From positions 324,131-388,130 of the forward strand of contig QFDA01000001.1 of assembly GCA_003130815.1 (NCBI GenBank): DNA of 64,000 nt. The letters are read 5' to 3'. Positions within the stretch are counted from its first letter, which is position 1. Every line of letters begins with the position of its first letter. Positions 642 to 20,822 of the stretch are shown piece after piece. The notes under the pieces are model-generated. The model was given only the letters and a program-made list of their open reading frames with translations, did not search any database and was not told where the DNA came from. Source of the DNA: Bacteroidetes bacterium SCGC AAA795-G10. Its GTDB lineage: Bacteria; Bacteroidota; Bacteroidia; Flavobacteriales; Flavobacteriaceae. The translations under genes and the position numbers were made by a program.

Positions 642-2228
642 ATGAGAAGTTTTGCAGCTCTAATTGAAGAATTAGATAGTACTAATAAAACTAATGAAAA
701 GGTAAAAATTTTATCAAATTATTTTAAAAGTACGCCACAAAAAGACTCTCTTTGGGCGATTGCACTTTTATCCCATAGACGTCCTCCCCGTCCACTTAAT
801 ACGACTTTAATGAGGATTTGGGCCTCAGAATTAGCAGGGATCCCAGATTGGCTTTTTGAGGAATCTTATCACATTGTAGGAGACCTTGCCGAAACTATTT
901 CTCTTTCAGTTCCTCAAGAAATTCATTTAGCGCCACCTTCACTATCTGAATGCATTAAAGAAATAATTAATTTAAAGTATAAAGATGAAAAAGAGAAAAA
1001 AAGTTACGTATTTAAGCGTTGGAAGAGTTTTAATAACTACGAAAAATTTGTATTTAATAAGATACTTACAGGAGGATTTCGTATTGGTATAAGTCAAAAA
1101 CTTATGACTCGTGCTCTTTCAAAAGCAGTCAAAATTGAAGAAAATATATTAGCTCACCGTCTAATGGGACAATGGTCACCGATGACTACAACTTTTGAAG
1201 AACTTATAATTAATCCTAATCCTGAAGATCAAATTTCTCAACCCTATCCATTTTTTTTAGCTTATCCTATTGATCAAGATTTTCAAGATAAAGAGTTAGT
1301 TCAAAATTGGTGTTTTGAACACAAATGGGATGGGATGAGATCCCAATTAATAATAAGAAAAGGGAAATATTTTTTGTGGAGTCGTGGAGAAGAATTAATT
1401 ACTAATAAATTTCCCGAGCTTAGTTCACTAGTTGGTTTAATTCCAGATGGTACAGTTTTAGACGGAGAGCTTTTACCCTATAAAGAAAATAAGGTTGGAT
1501 ATTTTAATGACTTGCAAAAAAGAATTGGACGTAAAACTGTATCGAAAAAATTGCAGGATGAAATTCCAATTGTAATAATGCTTTATGATATATTGGAATG
1601 GGAGGGAAAAGACATTAGGAATTACCTTTTAGTAAGACGAAAAGAAATTTTAGAATCTCTTTATAAAAAAATTAAAGTTAATAATGCTCCTGTACTTTTA
1701 TCTCAGGTAATGTTTTTTGAGAATTGGAACAAGGTGAAAGAAGAAAGAAAAAGAGCAGATGAAAAATCTAGCGAAGGCTTAATGATAAAGAAAAAAGATT
1801 CGATATATTCTGTAGGGAGAAAGAAAGGTTTTTGGTTTAAGTGGAAATCAGATCCAAAAACAATTGATGCTGTACTAACTTATGCTATGAGAGGACATGG
1901 TAGACGAACTAACCTTTATACAGATTATACTTTTGCTCTGTGGAATGATGAAAAACTAGTAACTTTTGCAAAGGCATACTCTGGACTGACAGATATGGAA
2001 ATAAGAAAAGTTGATAGGTTCATAAAACAAAATACTATTGATCGTTTTGGCCCTGTTCGTCAAGTAAAGCCAGAGTTAGTTTTTGAAATCGCTTTTGAGG
2101 GGATTGCATCATCATCTCGGCATAAAAGTGGTTTTGCTGTACGTTTCCCAAGGATTTTACGTTGGCGTCATGACAAAAAGATAGCCGATGCTGATACTAT
2201 AAATGATCTCAAACAATTTTTGCGGTGA
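642..2228 (+). CDS. ATP-dependent DNA ligase of the Lhr-associated cluster
   Basis: This 528-residue protein is an ATP-dependent ligase of the type found in bacterial Lhr-Lig repair clusters, separate from the replicative NAD-dependent LigA. The N-terminal roughly 200 residues form the helical DNA-binding domain. The adenylation motif KWDGMR puts the AMP-accepting lysine at about K228. The downstream motifs DGELL and SEGLMIKKK and a C-terminal OB-fold part (FKWKSDPKTIDAVL onward) follow in the expected order. It starts at an ATG touching the exonuclease stop and ends in a 4-nt overlap with the helicase. Expected role: sealing nicks during DNA repair. Confidence 0.93.
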   Translation: MRSFAALIEELDSTNKTNEKVKILSNYFKSTPQKDSLWAIALLSHRRPPRPLNTTLMRIWASELAGIPDWLFEESYHIVGDLAETISLSVPQEIHLAPPSLSECIKEIINLKYKDEKEKKSYVFKRWKSFNNYEKFVFNKILTGGFRIGISQKLMTRALSKAVKIEENILAHRLMGQWSPMTTTFEELIINPNPEDQISQPYPFFLAYPIDQDFQDKELVQNWCFEHKWDGMRSQLIIRKGKYFLWSRGEELITNKFPELSSLVGLIPDGTVLDGELLPYKENKVGYFNDLQKRIGRKTVSKKLQDEIPIVIMLYDILEWEGKDIRNYLLVRRKEILESLYKKIKVNNAPVLLSQVMFFENWNKVKEERKRADEKSSEGLMIKKKDSIYSVGRKKGFWFKWKSDPKTIDAVLTYAMRGHGRRTNLYTDYTFALWNDEKLVTFAKAYSGLTDMEIRKVDRFIKQNTIDRFGPVRQVKPELVFEIAFEGIASSSRHKSGFAVRFPRILRWRHDKKIADADTINDLKQFLR

Positions 2229-14717: not shown

Positions 14718-15371
14718 TTAAATTCCAAAAGAATTAATTTTTATCAAAAGTATGGTGAAAAAAAGAAACTGAAGAATAAATAAATGAAAAGGAAATGGAC
14801 CGTTTAACTTAGGATTTACCTTATGATAAAAAAAATGTAGGGGAAATGAGACTAGCGACCAGCCAAAATAATTTTGAAAAGATGCCAAGCCAGATTTAAA
14901 AGTCCAAAAATCTAAAACAGGTGCAACGGGCTCCATTACCAAATCTAAAGAAACCATTAAAAATATCCCCAATAAAATTTTTTGCCAAATGTTTTGAAAA
15001 AATTTAGCAGAAATAAATCCAGTAATGAATACTAAAATGCACCAATTAATTCCAATCAAAATAGGAACACCAAAAACTTTTATCCCCAGGGCATCGCCAT
15101 AGCTGTATTCACCAAAAATTATTCCCTTATTAACTCCAATAATTTCAGCTAACATACCCACTGTAAAACATAGAATAAAGAGAAAAACTGTTTTTCTCGA
15201 GATTTTGGTATTTATTAATACTAATAAAAAGCTCAAAGCCAAGTTTAAAGGGGTTGCTTTAATAAACCATGAAGAATTACTATAAATAATCCCTATTAGT
15301 CCAGAGATATGGAAAATCCAAATTGTAGTAATTGATATATTTTGTTTATTAAATAGTTCTTTCTGTATCAC
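14718..15371 (-). CDS. cruF: Carotenoid 1',2'-hydratase-like protein (CruF/DUF422)
   Basis: A 217-residue polytopic membrane protein with about six to seven hydrophobic segments. Family marks include AEIIGVNKGIIFGEYSYGD, GVPILIGINW and LDLVMEPVAP, characteristic of the DUF422/CruF carotenoid proteins. CruF adds water to the psi end group of gamma-carotene-type intermediates, giving a 1'-hydroxyl. The start is a GTG sharing GTGA with the crtD stop, so the two are translationally coupled. Position directly after crtD fits sequential action on the same acyclic end. Some relatives in bisanhydrobacterioruberin pathways have other substrates, so the exact reaction is inferred. Confidence 0.85.
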   Translation of the reverse strand: MIQKELFNKQNISITTIWIFHISGLIGIIYSNSSWFIKATPLNLALSFLLVLINTKISRKTVFLFILCFTVGMLAEIIGVNKGIIFGEYSYGDALGIKVFGVPILIGINWCILVFITGFISAKFFQNIWQKILLGIFLMVSLDLVMEPVAPVLDFWTFKSGLASFQNYFGWSLVSFPLHFFYHKVNPKLNGPFPFHLFILQFLFFTILLIKINSFGI

Positions 15372-16840
15372 TTTTTAATATCAGGAATAATCTCAGAAAC
15401 AATTTTTGCAGAAAGTAAGCATAAGGGAATTCCTCCTCCAGGATGAACACTACCACCGCAAAAATAAAGATTCTTGATTTTGTTAGAAAAATTTGGATGC
15501 CTCAAAAATGCAGCCATTTTGTTGTTACTTGAAGAGCCATATAAAGCTCCCATGTATGACTGTGTTTTGTTTTCAATTGTTACTGGTGTTAGAATTTCTT
15601 CACATTCAATTTTATCTTTAAGCGAAATACCCAATTTATCTGATAGATTATTTATTACTATTTGCCTTAAATTTTTTACTAATTTATCCCAATCTTGTCC
15701 ATGATTTGCAGGTGTATTTACCATAACAAACCAGTTCTCACATCCTTTCGGAGCGTCATTTAAAACATCCTTTGATGTAATGTTTACATAAATTGTTGGA
15801 TCTTTATATACGGTTTTATTCTTAAAGATAGACTCAAACTCTTTAGCATAATTTTTTGAAAAGAATATGTTGTGTAAATCAAGTTGCCTAAATGAATGTT
15901 TTACACCCCAATAAAAAATTATTGCAGAGCTTGAACGTTCTTGCTGCAAGATTTTTAAAGGAGGTTTTAATTTAGGAATTAATTTTTTATAAGTATAAAA
16001 TACATCCATGTTAGAAATTATATAATCTGATTCAAAAAATTTATCATCTACCATAATGCCTTTTACACTTTTTTTATCAAGGACTATCTCATTTACTAAA
16101 GAACTAAAATGAAATTTTACCCCTAATCTTTTTGCCAAAGCAACTAGTGCTTCGGTAATTGAAACCATCCCTTTAGATGGAATAAACGTTCCATATGAAT
16201 TTTCAAAATGCTGAATCAAACTCATTATCCCAGGTGTTTGGTAGGGATCTGATCCATTATAAGTAGCATATCTATCAAAAAGTTGAATTAAGTAAGGGGA
16301 TGAAAATGAATTTGAGTTTACTTCATGTAGTGATTTTTGAATATCAAAAACTTGAAGTTGCAAGATTGCTTTAATTGTTGAAGCTGAAAAAAATGTTTTA
16401 ATTTTATGTAATGATTTTTCTAAAAATAAAGTGCCTGTCAGGTCATATTTTTTTTTCGCTTTTTTTAGATATCTAATAACTTTTTCTCTTGGTTCGTGGA
16501 ATTTGAATTCAACTTCATCTAAAAACTTTTCCTGACTCCCAAAAGCTGTAAAGGTCTTCCCATCTTGCCAAAAATATTTACAAGACACGTCTTTTTTCTT
16601 GAAATGAAAATGATCACTAGTATTTTCACCTGCTAATTCAAAAAGTTCTGTAATAAAATGTGGCATTGTGAATAAAGAAGGGCCAGCATCAAAACGATAA
16701 CCTTTAAGTTTAAAAGACGATAACTTTCCTCCTGGATATTTGTTTTGTTCAAAAATATGTACCCTGTAGCCTTTCAATGCCAATCTTACTCCAGAGGCTA
16801 ATCCAGCAACCCCTGATCCTATAATTGCTATCTTTTTCAC
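15368..16840 (-). CDS. crtD: Carotenoid 3,4-desaturase (CrtD-type, CrtI family)
   Basis: A FAD-dependent carotenoid desaturase. I place the start at the GTG at 16840, which overlaps the crtA-like stop as GTGA; a longer reading frame back to 16906 only adds residues that overlap that gene. This gives 490 residues beginning MKKIAIIGSGVAGLASG, the ADP-binding Rossmann motif. YPGGKLSSF, GYRFDAGPSLFTMP and a C-terminal GGSVHPGGGIPLCLLSA are typical of CrtD rather than CrtI. It should introduce the 3',4' double bond on a 1'-hydroxylated acyclic end group. A true CrtI is encoded at 19356-20822, supporting the division of labour. Confidence 0.88.
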   Translation of the reverse strand: MKKIAIIGSGVAGLASGVRLALKGYRVHIFEQNKYPGGKLSSFKLKGYRFDAGPSLFTMPHFITELFELAGENTSDHFHFKKKDVSCKYFWQDGKTFTAFGSQEKFLDEVEFKFHEPREKVIRYLKKAKKKYDLTGTLFLEKSLHKIKTFFSASTIKAILQLQVFDIQKSLHEVNSNSFSSPYLIQLFDRYATYNGSDPYQTPGIMSLIQHFENSYGTFIPSKGMVSITEALVALAKRLGVKFHFSSLVNEIVLDKKSVKGIMVDDKFFESDYIISNMDVFYTYKKLIPKLKPPLKILQQERSSSAIIFYWGVKHSFRQLDLHNIFFSKNYAKEFESIFKNKTVYKDPTIYVNITSKDVLNDAPKGCENWFVMVNTPANHGQDWDKLVKNLRQIVINNLSDKLGISLKDKIECEEILTPVTIENKTQSYMGALYGSSSNNKMAAFLRHPNFSNKIKNLYFCGGSVHPGGGIPLCLLSAKIVSEIIPDIKK

Positions 16841-17523
16841 AACGGTAATTTTTTTGTTGTGTCTGATATAAGATTGAATCTTGAGAAAAGATCCTCTTTG
16901 TACCACTTTTTTTTTCTTGTTACTTTGACTATGTCTGAATGAATTTTGTCTTTGTATGCAAAATCATTTATTGATTTAAAGTTATCCCAAATACTTATTG
17001 TGGCCTGTTGTATGAAAGGCCATTCACCAATACCCTTATAATAGTGAACTCCTTTAGCATTTTTTATTGCTTTGCTAGCTCTTGGAACAGCATTCCAAAA
17101 TGAAAGCAATCTGTTCCACCTTAATGTTGCCCGTGTAATAACAACAATTTTTTTATTTACTTCAGATTTTGAATTGTAAGACTCCCCCTTAAATGGATTT
17201 TTTTTGTCCCAAAATCCATGACTATTTATGTTTCCTAAAATTAAGTCACGTTGAGTATTTGCTTTACTTTGATATTCAATAAAAAGTGGGTGTTGAGATA
17301 AACATTTTTTGTACGATTCGTAACTATCCCATACGCCTAGAAATGCGTAAGTTGAAAAATCAGGGCGAAGGCTAAATCCCTGGCCACCACCTGTACCAAG
17401 GAATTTATAAAAGGATAAACCCTGCACATTTTTAATTTTTTTTGGAGCAATTCCCATTTGTGAAAAAGCCCAAAATTTGTTTTTAACGAATGAAAATATT
17501 GTGATTGAGGTAATCGAATTCAT
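16837..17523 (-). CDS. crtA: Spheroidene monooxygenase-like protein (CrtA family)
   Basis: A 228-residue protein with the look of the CrtA family: FKFLGTGGGQGFSLRPDFSTY-like wording (split here as FLGTGGGQGF and RPDFSTYAFLGVWD), a repeated heme-monooxygenase-like pattern around ATISIWDNF, and KGVHYYKGIGEWP. CrtA of purple bacteria adds a keto group at C2 of spheroidene. Here it is the first gene of a coupled crtA-crtD-cruF run, so it probably oxygenates the same acyclic end, perhaps at C2'. That regiochemistry is inference. The ATG at 17523 has a near-match -7 box (plus-strand CAATTTTA, 17540-17547) shortly upstream, and a long hairpin further up. Confidence 0.78.
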   Translation of the reverse strand: MNSITSITIFSFVKNKFWAFSQMGIAPKKIKNVQGLSFYKFLGTGGGQGFSLRPDFSTYAFLGVWDSYESYKKCLSQHPLFIEYQSKANTQRDLILGNINSHGFWDKKNPFKGESYNSKSEVNKKIVVITRATLRWNRLLSFWNAVPRASKAIKNAKGVHYYKGIGEWPFIQQATISIWDNFKSINDFAYKDKIHSDIVKVTRKKKWYKEDLFSRFNLISDTTKKLPL

Positions 17524-17576
17524 TAATGAGAAGGTATAGCAATTTTACCTATGTAAATTTATAAAAAGAAAAAAGA

Positions 17577-17637
17577 AAAACGTCTCTGTTTAGGATTTTA
17601 GAATTTGACTAATGGAAGTAATCAGCAGAGACGTTTT
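17577..17637 (-). ncRNA. Candidate structured leader or attenuator upstream of crtA-like gene
   Basis: The arms AAAACGTCTCTG (17577-17588) and CAGAGACGTTTT (17626-17637) are perfect 12-bp complements enclosing 37 nt. Read on the minus strand, the closing arm runs into a T-rich tract (bases 17580 down to about 17562), as in an intrinsic terminator or attenuator. The orientation places it 54 nt before the crtA-like ATG. It could also end an unannotated small RNA. No known riboswitch core is recognised. Confidence 0.45.
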
Positions 17638-17770
17638 GAAACCAAATTGAATTTAAACTTGTTTAAAGATATAGAAAAAAGATTATACAAAAAAACATTT
17701 TGTTTATTTTTTTTATTTTTTTTTCAAACGTTTATAATTGAAGTTGATTTTTATGTACCAATAGACTTAT

Positions 17771-17786
17771 TATCAATAGATTGATA
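17771..17786. promoter_or_regulatory. Near-palindrome, candidate operator upstream of K+ channel gene
   Basis: TATCAAT-AG-ATTGATA has two perfect 7-nt arms around a 2-nt centre, 73 bp before the channel start. The form suits a dimeric regulator such as a MerR- or GntR-type protein, but no such regulator is encoded nearby. Confidence 0.35.
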
Positions 17787-17858
17787 GACAAATAATAAAT
17801 ATCTTTAAAAAAGTAGATTATTAAAAAAAAAATGTTTTTTTGAACTAAATTATATTTT

Positions 17859-18557
17859 ATGAAAAAATTTAATCGCTTTGATATTTTCATTTACGTTCTG
17901 ATTATTGCAAATATTATCGCAATGATTCTGGAGTCTCACGAATTTATTAAAGATAGATTTGAAAAAAGTTTTTATTATTTTGAACTTATCTCTATTATAA
18001 CATTTACTTTAGAATATTTCTATCGAATATATATTAGTTATAATAAATCCAAATGGAAGGGAGTCAAATCATATGTCTTTAGTTTTTTTGGTGTGGTTGA
18101 TTTCATTTCAATATTACCTTTTTACATTAAACAGTTTGTCTTAATTGATGGCCGATTCTTTAGAATTTTAAGACTATTCCGTTTATCAAGAATATTTAAA
18201 CTTGGTCGGGACAGTAAATCTTTAAAGCTTTTTATAAAAGCTATATCTGCAGTCCAAAATGAATTAAAATTTACCTTTTTCTTATCATTACTATGTATTC
18301 TTTTTTCAGCTTCTGCTATTTATTTCTTAGAAAATGAAGCGCAGCCAGAAATATTTTCAAGTATTACAGCTTCATTATGGTGGGCTACTGTATCACTTGC
18401 AACTGTGGGTTATGGTGATGTGGTACCAATTACGACTTGGGGAAAAATATTTGCTGGATTTATCTCCTTAATAGGAATTGGAATCGTAGCGATTCCAACA
18501 GGAATAATAAGCGCTTCCTTTGTTGAAGAAATTCATCATTTTAGAAAAAAAAGGTAA
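17859..18557 (+). CDS. Voltage-gated-type potassium channel
   Basis: A 232-residue six-transmembrane ion channel. The selectivity filter TVGYGD is at 182-187 in the pore loop SLATVGYGDVVP, defining potassium selectivity. An S4-like helix with regularly spaced arginines (FRILRLFRLSR, about residues 100-115) suggests voltage sensing. There is no RCK or cyclic-nucleotide domain; only a short basic tail follows S6. It probably acts in the inner membrane for potassium flux or membrane potential. The ThuA-like gene begins 9 nt downstream, so the two are likely co-transcribed although their roles are not evidently linked. Confidence 0.93.
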   Translation: MKKFNRFDIFIYVLIIANIIAMILESHEFIKDRFEKSFYYFELISIITFTLEYFYRIYISYNKSKWKGVKSYVFSFFGVVDFISILPFYIKQFVLIDGRFFRILRLFRLSRIFKLGRDSKSLKLFIKAISAVQNELKFTFFLSLLCILFSASAIYFLENEAQPEIFSSITASLWWATVSLATVGYGDVVPITTWGKIFAGFISLIGIGIVAIPTGIISASFVEEIHHFRKKR

Positions 18558-19355: not shown

Positions 19356-20822
19356 ATGGGTAAAAAAATTGCGATTATAGGCTCTGGATTTTCGTCCATG
19401 TCTGCTGCTTCCTATCTGGCGAAGAGTGGTTTTGAAGTAAACGTTTATGAAAAAAATAAAACTCTTGGAGGAAGAGCACGTCAGCTAAAAAAAGATGGAT
19501 TTACTTTTGATATGGGCCCTTCTTGGTATTGGATGCCTGACGTTTTCGAATCATTTTTTAATGATTTTGGAAAAAAAACAGCTGACTTTTATAAGCTAGA
19601 AAGACTAGACCCTGGTTATCAGGTTTTTTTTGGAGAAAATGAAAGTATATGTATAGGTGATTCTCTTGAAAAAATTTGCAATGTTTTTGAAAAAGAAGAA
19701 AAAGGTAGTGGCGAAAAACTTATGAAATTTATCAAAACTGCAAATGAGAACTATAATATAGCGATTAAAGATCTTGTCTATCGGCCAGGAATTAGCCCGT
19801 TAGAACTTATTACACCAACAACAATTAAAAAGATAAAATACTTTCTAAGTAATATAAAAAAAGATGTGTGCAAAGATTTTGTTAGTCCTAAGCTTAGACA
19901 AATACTTCAATTCCCAGTACTTTTCCTTGGTGCTAAACCCTCAGAAACCCCTTCTTTCTACAATTTTATGAATTATGCAGATTTTGGATTAGGAACATGG
20001 CATCCTGAAAAAGGAATGTATAGTATAGTTGAAGCAATGTCTTCACTTGCTAAATCACTAGGTGTAAAATTCCATACAGAATCTAATGTTGAAAAAATAC
20101 TAGTTAATGACTCTAGAAATATAGCTGGTATAAAAATAAATGGGGATATTTTAAATACTGATGTTGTTTTATCAGGTGCGGACTACCATCATTCAGAAAC
20201 TCTTTTAGATAAAAAATATAGAAGGTATAGTAACGCATACTGGGAAAAAAAAGTTTTTGCCCCTTCTTCACTTTTATTTTATATCGGCTTAAATAAAAAA
20301 GTTGAAAATGTATCCCATCATTCTCTTTTTTTTGACGTTGACTTTGACAAACATGCTAGTACTATTTATGACTTTCCTTCATGGCCAGATAAACCACTTT
20401 TTTATGCAAACTTTCCTTCAATTTCGGACTCTTCGATGGCTCCAAAAGGAAAAGAAGCTTGCTTTATACTAATTCCAATTGCTCCCGGAATAGAGGATAC
20501 CAAAAAAATTAGAGACCATTACCTTGATTTAGTTATAAATAGATTGGAAAAATTGACTCACCAGTCAATAAAAAGAGAAATTCTTTTTTGTGAGTCATTT
20601 TGTATTAATGACTTTATTAGTGAATATAATTCCTACAAAGGCAACGCGTATGGGTTGGCTAATACACTTTTTCAAACAGCATTTTTACGTCCGAAACTAA
20701 AAAGTAAAAAGATTAAAAATTTGTTCTTTACAGGGCAACTAACAGTCCCTGGTCCTGGAGTTCCACCAGCTATAATCTCTGGCAAATTAGTTTCAGATCT
20801 AATATCAAAAACTAATCTTTAG
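19356..20822 (+). CDS. crtI: Phytoene desaturase
   Basis: A 488-residue FAD-dependent phytoene desaturase. The dinucleotide motif IIGSGFSSMSAASYLAKSG is at the N terminus, followed by NKTLGGRARQ and FDMGPSWYWMPDVF, a hallmark of Bacteroidota CrtI. The C-terminal carotenoid-desaturase signature is FFTGQLTVPGPGVPPAIISG. It converts phytoene to lycopene at the inner membrane. Unusually for the group, crtB does not follow; the next gene is convergent and overlaps by 11 nt, so crtI is a single-gene unit here and phytoene synthase must be elsewhere. Confidence 0.95.
   Translation: MGKKIAIIGSGFSSMSAASYLAKSGFEVNVYEKNKTLGGRARQLKKDGFTFDMGPSWYWMPDVFESFFNDFGKKTADFYKLERLDPGYQVFFGENESICIGDSLEKICNVFEKEEKGSGEKLMKFIKTANENYNIAIKDLVYRPGISPLELITPTTIKKIKYFLSNIKKDVCKDFVSPKLRQILQFPVLFLGAKPSETPSFYNFMNYADFGLGTWHPEKGMYSIVEAMSSLAKSLGVKFHTESNVEKILVNDSRNIAGIKINGDILNTDVVLSGADYHHSETLLDKKYRRYSNAYWEKKVFAPSSLLFYIGLNKKVENVSHHSLFFDVDFDKHASTIYDFPSWPDKPLFYANFPSISDSSMAPKGKEACFILIPIAPGIEDTKKIRDHYLDLVINRLEKLTHQSIKREILFCESFCINDFISEYNSYKGNAYGLANTLFQTAFLRPKLKSKKIKNLFFTGQLTVPGPGVPPAIISGKLVSDLISKTNL

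Follow-up and report, generated by a model that had tools for sequence, protein, structure and literature searches.

A conserved hairpin upstream of a crtA-like gene in small-genome Flavobacteriaceae: probable terminator of a small RNA

The long hairpin at 17577–17637 in the window (the whole stretch of DNA that was analysed, 64 kb, from a draft genome of 1.93 Mb) is read here as the terminator of a small RNA, about 88 nt long and transcribed on its own. On the evidence of sequence comparison, I put the probability of this reading at roughly 80%. The RNA would run from about 17657 to about 17570 on the minus strand, and I have filed the element, provisionally, as a new family of intergenic small RNA with an intrinsic terminator. 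The initial annotation had allowed both for the end of a small RNA and for a conditional terminator or structured leader controlling the adjacent pigment genes. It is the former that finds support, in a predicted promoter of its own, in conservation and in covariation. The features referred to below are as follows.

17688–17691, minus strand: TTTG, −33 box of the proposed small RNA promoter, within the conserved context TTTTGTNTAA (alignments and published consensus)
17664–17671, minus strand: TATCTTTA, −7 box of the proposed small RNA promoter, separated from the −33 box by 16 nt (alignments; per-position conservation 0.83–0.89)
17569–17663, minus strand: conserved element, matching covariance model R1 with 121 bits (covariance-model search)
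17638–17657, minus strand: single-stranded 5' tail UUUAAAUUCAAUUUGGUUUC, 20 nt, nearly invariant (0.95–0.99), candidate seed (alignment, fold)
17626–17637, minus strand: 5' arm of the terminator stem, AAAACGUCUCUG (complementarity, fold, stem covariation)
17589–17625, minus strand: conserved loop, containing the segment GUCAAAUUCUAAAAUCC and, around CUUCCAU, a small inner hairpin; candidate second seed or protein site (fold, alignment)
17577–17588, minus strand: 3' arm of the terminator stem, CAGAGACGUUUU (complementarity, fold, stem covariation)
17563–17576, minus strand: T-rich tract of the intrinsic terminator, TCTTTTTTCTTTTT, directly past the closing arm (sequence)
17540–17547, minus strand: weak −7-like box TAAAATTG of a proposed separate crtA promoter, 5 of 6 match (spacer motif search)
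16837–17523, minus strand: CrtA-like gene (spheroidene monooxygenase relative), neighbour outside the RNA (NF045923, 188 bits, under its cut-off of 300 bits)
17859–18557, plus strand: voltage-gated potassium-channel-like gene, divergent, usually found on the other side of the element (profile match, locus comparison)

The element sits in a 335-bp gap between the divergent potassium-channel-like gene and the CrtA-like gene, the latter followed by CrtD and a CruF-like gene. Two CrtI-type desaturases flank the locus, at 19356–20822 and 15368–16906; they are CrtID (bifunctional phytoene/3,4-desaturase) and CrtD, both above cut-off. The combination of CrtID, CrtD, CrtA-like and CruF-like genes suggests a carotenoid pathway of the acyclic or a related type. 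On the channel-gene side, the remainder of the gap (17720–17860) is very A/T-rich and poorly conserved beyond the closest relatives.

The hairpin itself is as initially annotated. The arms (17577–17588 and 17626–17637) are complementary at 12 of 12 base pairs around a loop of 37 nt, the T tract follows on the minus strand, and about 54 nt separate the closing arm from the downstream crtA-like ATG at 17523, with the near −7 box present at 17540–17547 in between. The 83-nt hairpin stretch has a fold energy of −15.9 kcal/mol (z = −4.1 relative to shuffled sequences). It is the single perfect 12-bp inverted repeat in the 64-kb window whose arms each hold 4 or more G/C and whose loop is no longer than 45 nt; dinucleotide shuffles of the window contain on average 0.12 such repeats, and 7% of them have at least one. 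The uniqueness of the hairpin, taken alone, is only mildly unusual, and its proof rests on conservation.

When the regions upstream of crtA are aligned within the genus, a sharply bounded block (17688–17569) stands out with 83–99% agreement, while the adjacent downstream spacer is only 50–60% conserved and the first codons of crtA 68–75%. The order of parts within the block is TTTG, 16 nt, TATCTTTA, AACAAG, TTTAAATTCAATTTGGTTTC, stem, loop, stem and T tract. A CrtA-like protein is present in 34 of the 37 genus genomes searched, that of the window included, and the covariance model identifies 28 carriers of the element among 38 genus genomes. Of 397 genomes sampled from the family, 12 match the same model, distributed over seven genera (six besides its own); in one of these other genera 15 of 22 genomes carry the element, and a sample of 395 genomes from the order added no further carriers. 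The tail motif, searched for in 84,980 species, gave 28 matches, all in this kind of organism and always upstream of a crtA-like gene where the contig is long enough, the channel gene being nearly always on the opposite side. Many of the named carrier records, which are metagenome-assembled or uncultured genomes under the labels Flavobacteriaceae, Flavobacteriales or Bacteroidetes, bear marine sample names, and all carriers are small draft assemblies of about 1.2–2.2 Mb. I found no second copy of the element in its own genome and no match to it in viral contigs. In one assembly, JJ.26, two contigs (the start of L089 and the end of L096) break exactly within the element, which is probably an assembly artefact.

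Covariation of the stem in relatives was assessed with 29 diverse sequences of the element, using 500 shuffles and slid partners as controls, and the outcome was positive. Standard pairs occupy 97.3% of the stem cells, and 6 of the 12 pairs show two-sided, compensatory changes, as in the arm pairs CGUCUCUG/CAGAGACG, CGCCUCUG/CAGAGGCG and CACCUCUG/CAGAGGUG. None of the 500 shuffles reached the covariation observed, and slid partners pair at just 36–67%. These results support a structured RNA containing the 12-bp helix. The top of the helix differs between lineages in length and pairing.

In members of the element the stem is followed by a U tract, which is weak in one genus, g85. There (G125 and G340; L139 5133–5222 and L140 5367–5457), the stem is fully paired and extended and the T tract is nearly gone. 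Since the stem is kept despite the poor tract, the g85 hairpin may have a role besides termination.

The putative promoter boxes, TTTG-16-TATCTTTA, are kept at the level of sequence in alignments of the genus itself and of the other genera that carry the element. The distance of 16 nt between −33 and −7 boxes is on the short side. TTTG/TAnnTTTG is the promoter consensus of B. fragilis and F. johnsoniae (PMC2483708). The proposal, then, is that a housekeeping-type Bacteroidetes promoter (−33 TTTG, −7 TATCTTTA) would start the RNA near 17657. The RNA would consist of the 20-nt unstructured 5' tail and then the 12-bp terminator stem enclosing the conserved 37-nt loop; transcription would end in the U tract, and the downstream crtA would be transcribed from a separate promoter. 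The predicted RNA of about 88 nt likewise combines an unstructured tail with a conserved loop. Tail and loop have the motif AAAUUC in common, and its two copies lie in otherwise unstructured conserved segments. The element contains no conserved short reading frame or leader peptide.

Most members of the element lie upstream of crtA and in the same direction, and this arrangement, in nearly all genomes, together with the position of the hairpin on the same strand 54 nt upstream of the gene, is what speaks for a conditional terminator or attenuator. A promoter near 17680 would then drive the crtA-crtD operon through a long 5' leader, and the hairpin would set how much transcription passes. In G244, moreover, crtA starts about 13 nt past the U tract and the interval shows no −7 box, so read-through may matter there; it is quite possible that a small share of transcripts reads through. 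Two genomes of one other genus (G198 and G385) speak against a leader, however. They retain the element and its promoter next to the channel gene but lack the crt operon there, and the element is followed by a convergent gene, which I judge from its sequence to encode a nucleoside transporter. An attenuator should always be followed by the same-strand gene that it regulates, and in these two it is not. Conversely, four genomes of the window's own genus (G001, G004, G008 and G029) have crtA without the element; they fall in at least two separate places on the CrtA tree, and hence the RNA has probably been lost more than once. A full TAnnTT[TA]G box occurs between terminator and crtA in 13 of 23 genus loci, as against about 8% per spacer expected from shuffling, and a leader is further disfavoured by the lack of a leader peptide and of any alternative antiterminator pairing in the predicted folds (single-sequence and consensus). 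With a predicted promoter of its own, persistence without a co-directional gene, crtA without the element and a separate −7 box usual before crtA, the structured pigment leader of the initial annotation is not favoured, and I regard it as unlikely.

Two further readings are far less probable. The conserved block might be a DNA element, that is, an operator with its promoter region, in which the hairpin arose by chance, and a palindrome, TTTAAAC-AA-GTTTAAA, does overlap the start region. The compensatory changes in the stem already disfavour this, though, and both the spacing and the sequence of the palindrome drift in other genera, while conservation of the loop reaches well past the promoter; I consider it very improbable. 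The palindrome TTTAAACAAGTTTAAA was considered as an operator, for example for a repressor of the CarH type, and was rejected because other genera do not preserve its spacing. A ligand-sensing element resembling a riboswitch would fit with the large conserved loop. The initial annotation had surmised a ligand-binding or regulatory part there, and it is true that the loop exceeds what a terminator needs and is about 90% conserved across the genus, but there is no sign of a ligand. A single helix has support, with no conserved multi-branched structure, no Rfam family matches, and in G198 and G385 there is no downstream gene to control. This is the least credible reading of all.

If the element is indeed the small RNA proposed, its conserved single-stranded tail, its loop or both may pair in trans with mRNAs near translation starts, without Hfq. 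I consider this the most likely mechanism, by analogy with GibS of Bacteroides, at about even odds; it is drawn from the anatomy of the RNA, and target searches found nothing convincing. Reverse complements of loop and tail, searched in 38 genus genomes, gave no conserved site at a start codon, and matches to the antisense patterns were only modestly above those of reversed-pattern controls. The recurrent loop matches that were followed lie within conserved coding sequences, which on their translations alone belong to an ABC-F-like ATPase and to a second conserved gene; another group falls in promoter-like intergenic sequence. One such sequence, the conserved intergenic TTGACAAATAGGATTTTAGAATGTGGTACCTTTG in L228, L229 and L230 (near 709–751, reverse strand), looks like a strong Bacteroidetes promoter, and its match to the antisense of the loop is probably due to chance. 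A duplex scan of 59 start regions in the window gave best energies within the shuffled range. A search of 31 genomes, including 19 from the window's own genus, detected its positive controls but no Hfq. A link of the RNA to pigment control is suggested by its neighbourhood only.

A variant of the stand-alone RNA, whose probability overlaps that given above for the small RNA, is that tail and loop bind an RNA-binding protein through AAAUUC, rather than mRNAs, which would make it a protein-binding or sponge RNA. The two copies of the motif in unstructured conserved segments, the retention of the stem where the T tract is weak and the failure of target searches to find an mRNA all lean this way; however, the motif is short and A/T-rich, and no candidate protein was identified. 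I hold this variant to be rather unlikely.

Little is known about small RNAs in marine Bacteroidetes, and Hfq was not found in the genomes considered here; the element offers a test case for small RNA control in small-genome bacteria. Tentatively, and with less than even odds, it may represent an undescribed family in small-genome marine Flavobacteriaceae, with a near-invariant 20-nt tail and a loop inside its own terminator hairpin, that regulates genes for pigment or membrane ions without Hfq. The element is compact, fixed at one locus, more conserved than the coding sequence next to it and lost in a few lineages, properties that make it a good marker in metatranscriptomes.

Comparison with Rfam, including Flavo-1, had been proposed in the initial annotation. 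No family of Rfam 15 matches anywhere in the window at the gathering score, and the region of the element matches nothing at E up to 10, Flavo-1 included. Flavo-1 (RF01705) is likewise a structured RNA candidate of Bacteroidetes, one not thought to be cis-regulatory (PMC2864571, table), and differs from the element in giving no match at that threshold. The 6S-Flavo RNA (RF01685) resembles it in being a small RNA of Flavobacteria that stands alone and forms a long hairpin. An assignment of the element to that family was rejected, as there is no match and the genome's own 6S-Flavo lies elsewhere (G000:C60:71563-71671, 106 bits). I found no description of the element in the literature on small RNAs in Flavobacteria, the coverage of which was incomplete. 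Attenuators with intrinsic terminators share with it a hairpin and T tract upstream of a biosynthetic operon; unlike them, the element occurs without the operon and has no leader peptide and no antiterminator that could be seen. The closest working model is, by analogy, GibS of Bacteroides thetaiotaomicron, an intergenic small RNA of about 145 nt, described as conserved within Bacteroides and with known targets, whose conserved single-stranded 5' seed pairs at start codons and which also affects its adjacent operon (PMC7366714). Both are intergenic, with their own start (a predicted one in the element) and an intrinsic terminator, both have a conserved and mostly single-stranded 5' part, and both belong to a phylum without obvious Hfq; the element is shorter, about 88 nt, and the likeness is one of organisation, with no homology claimed.
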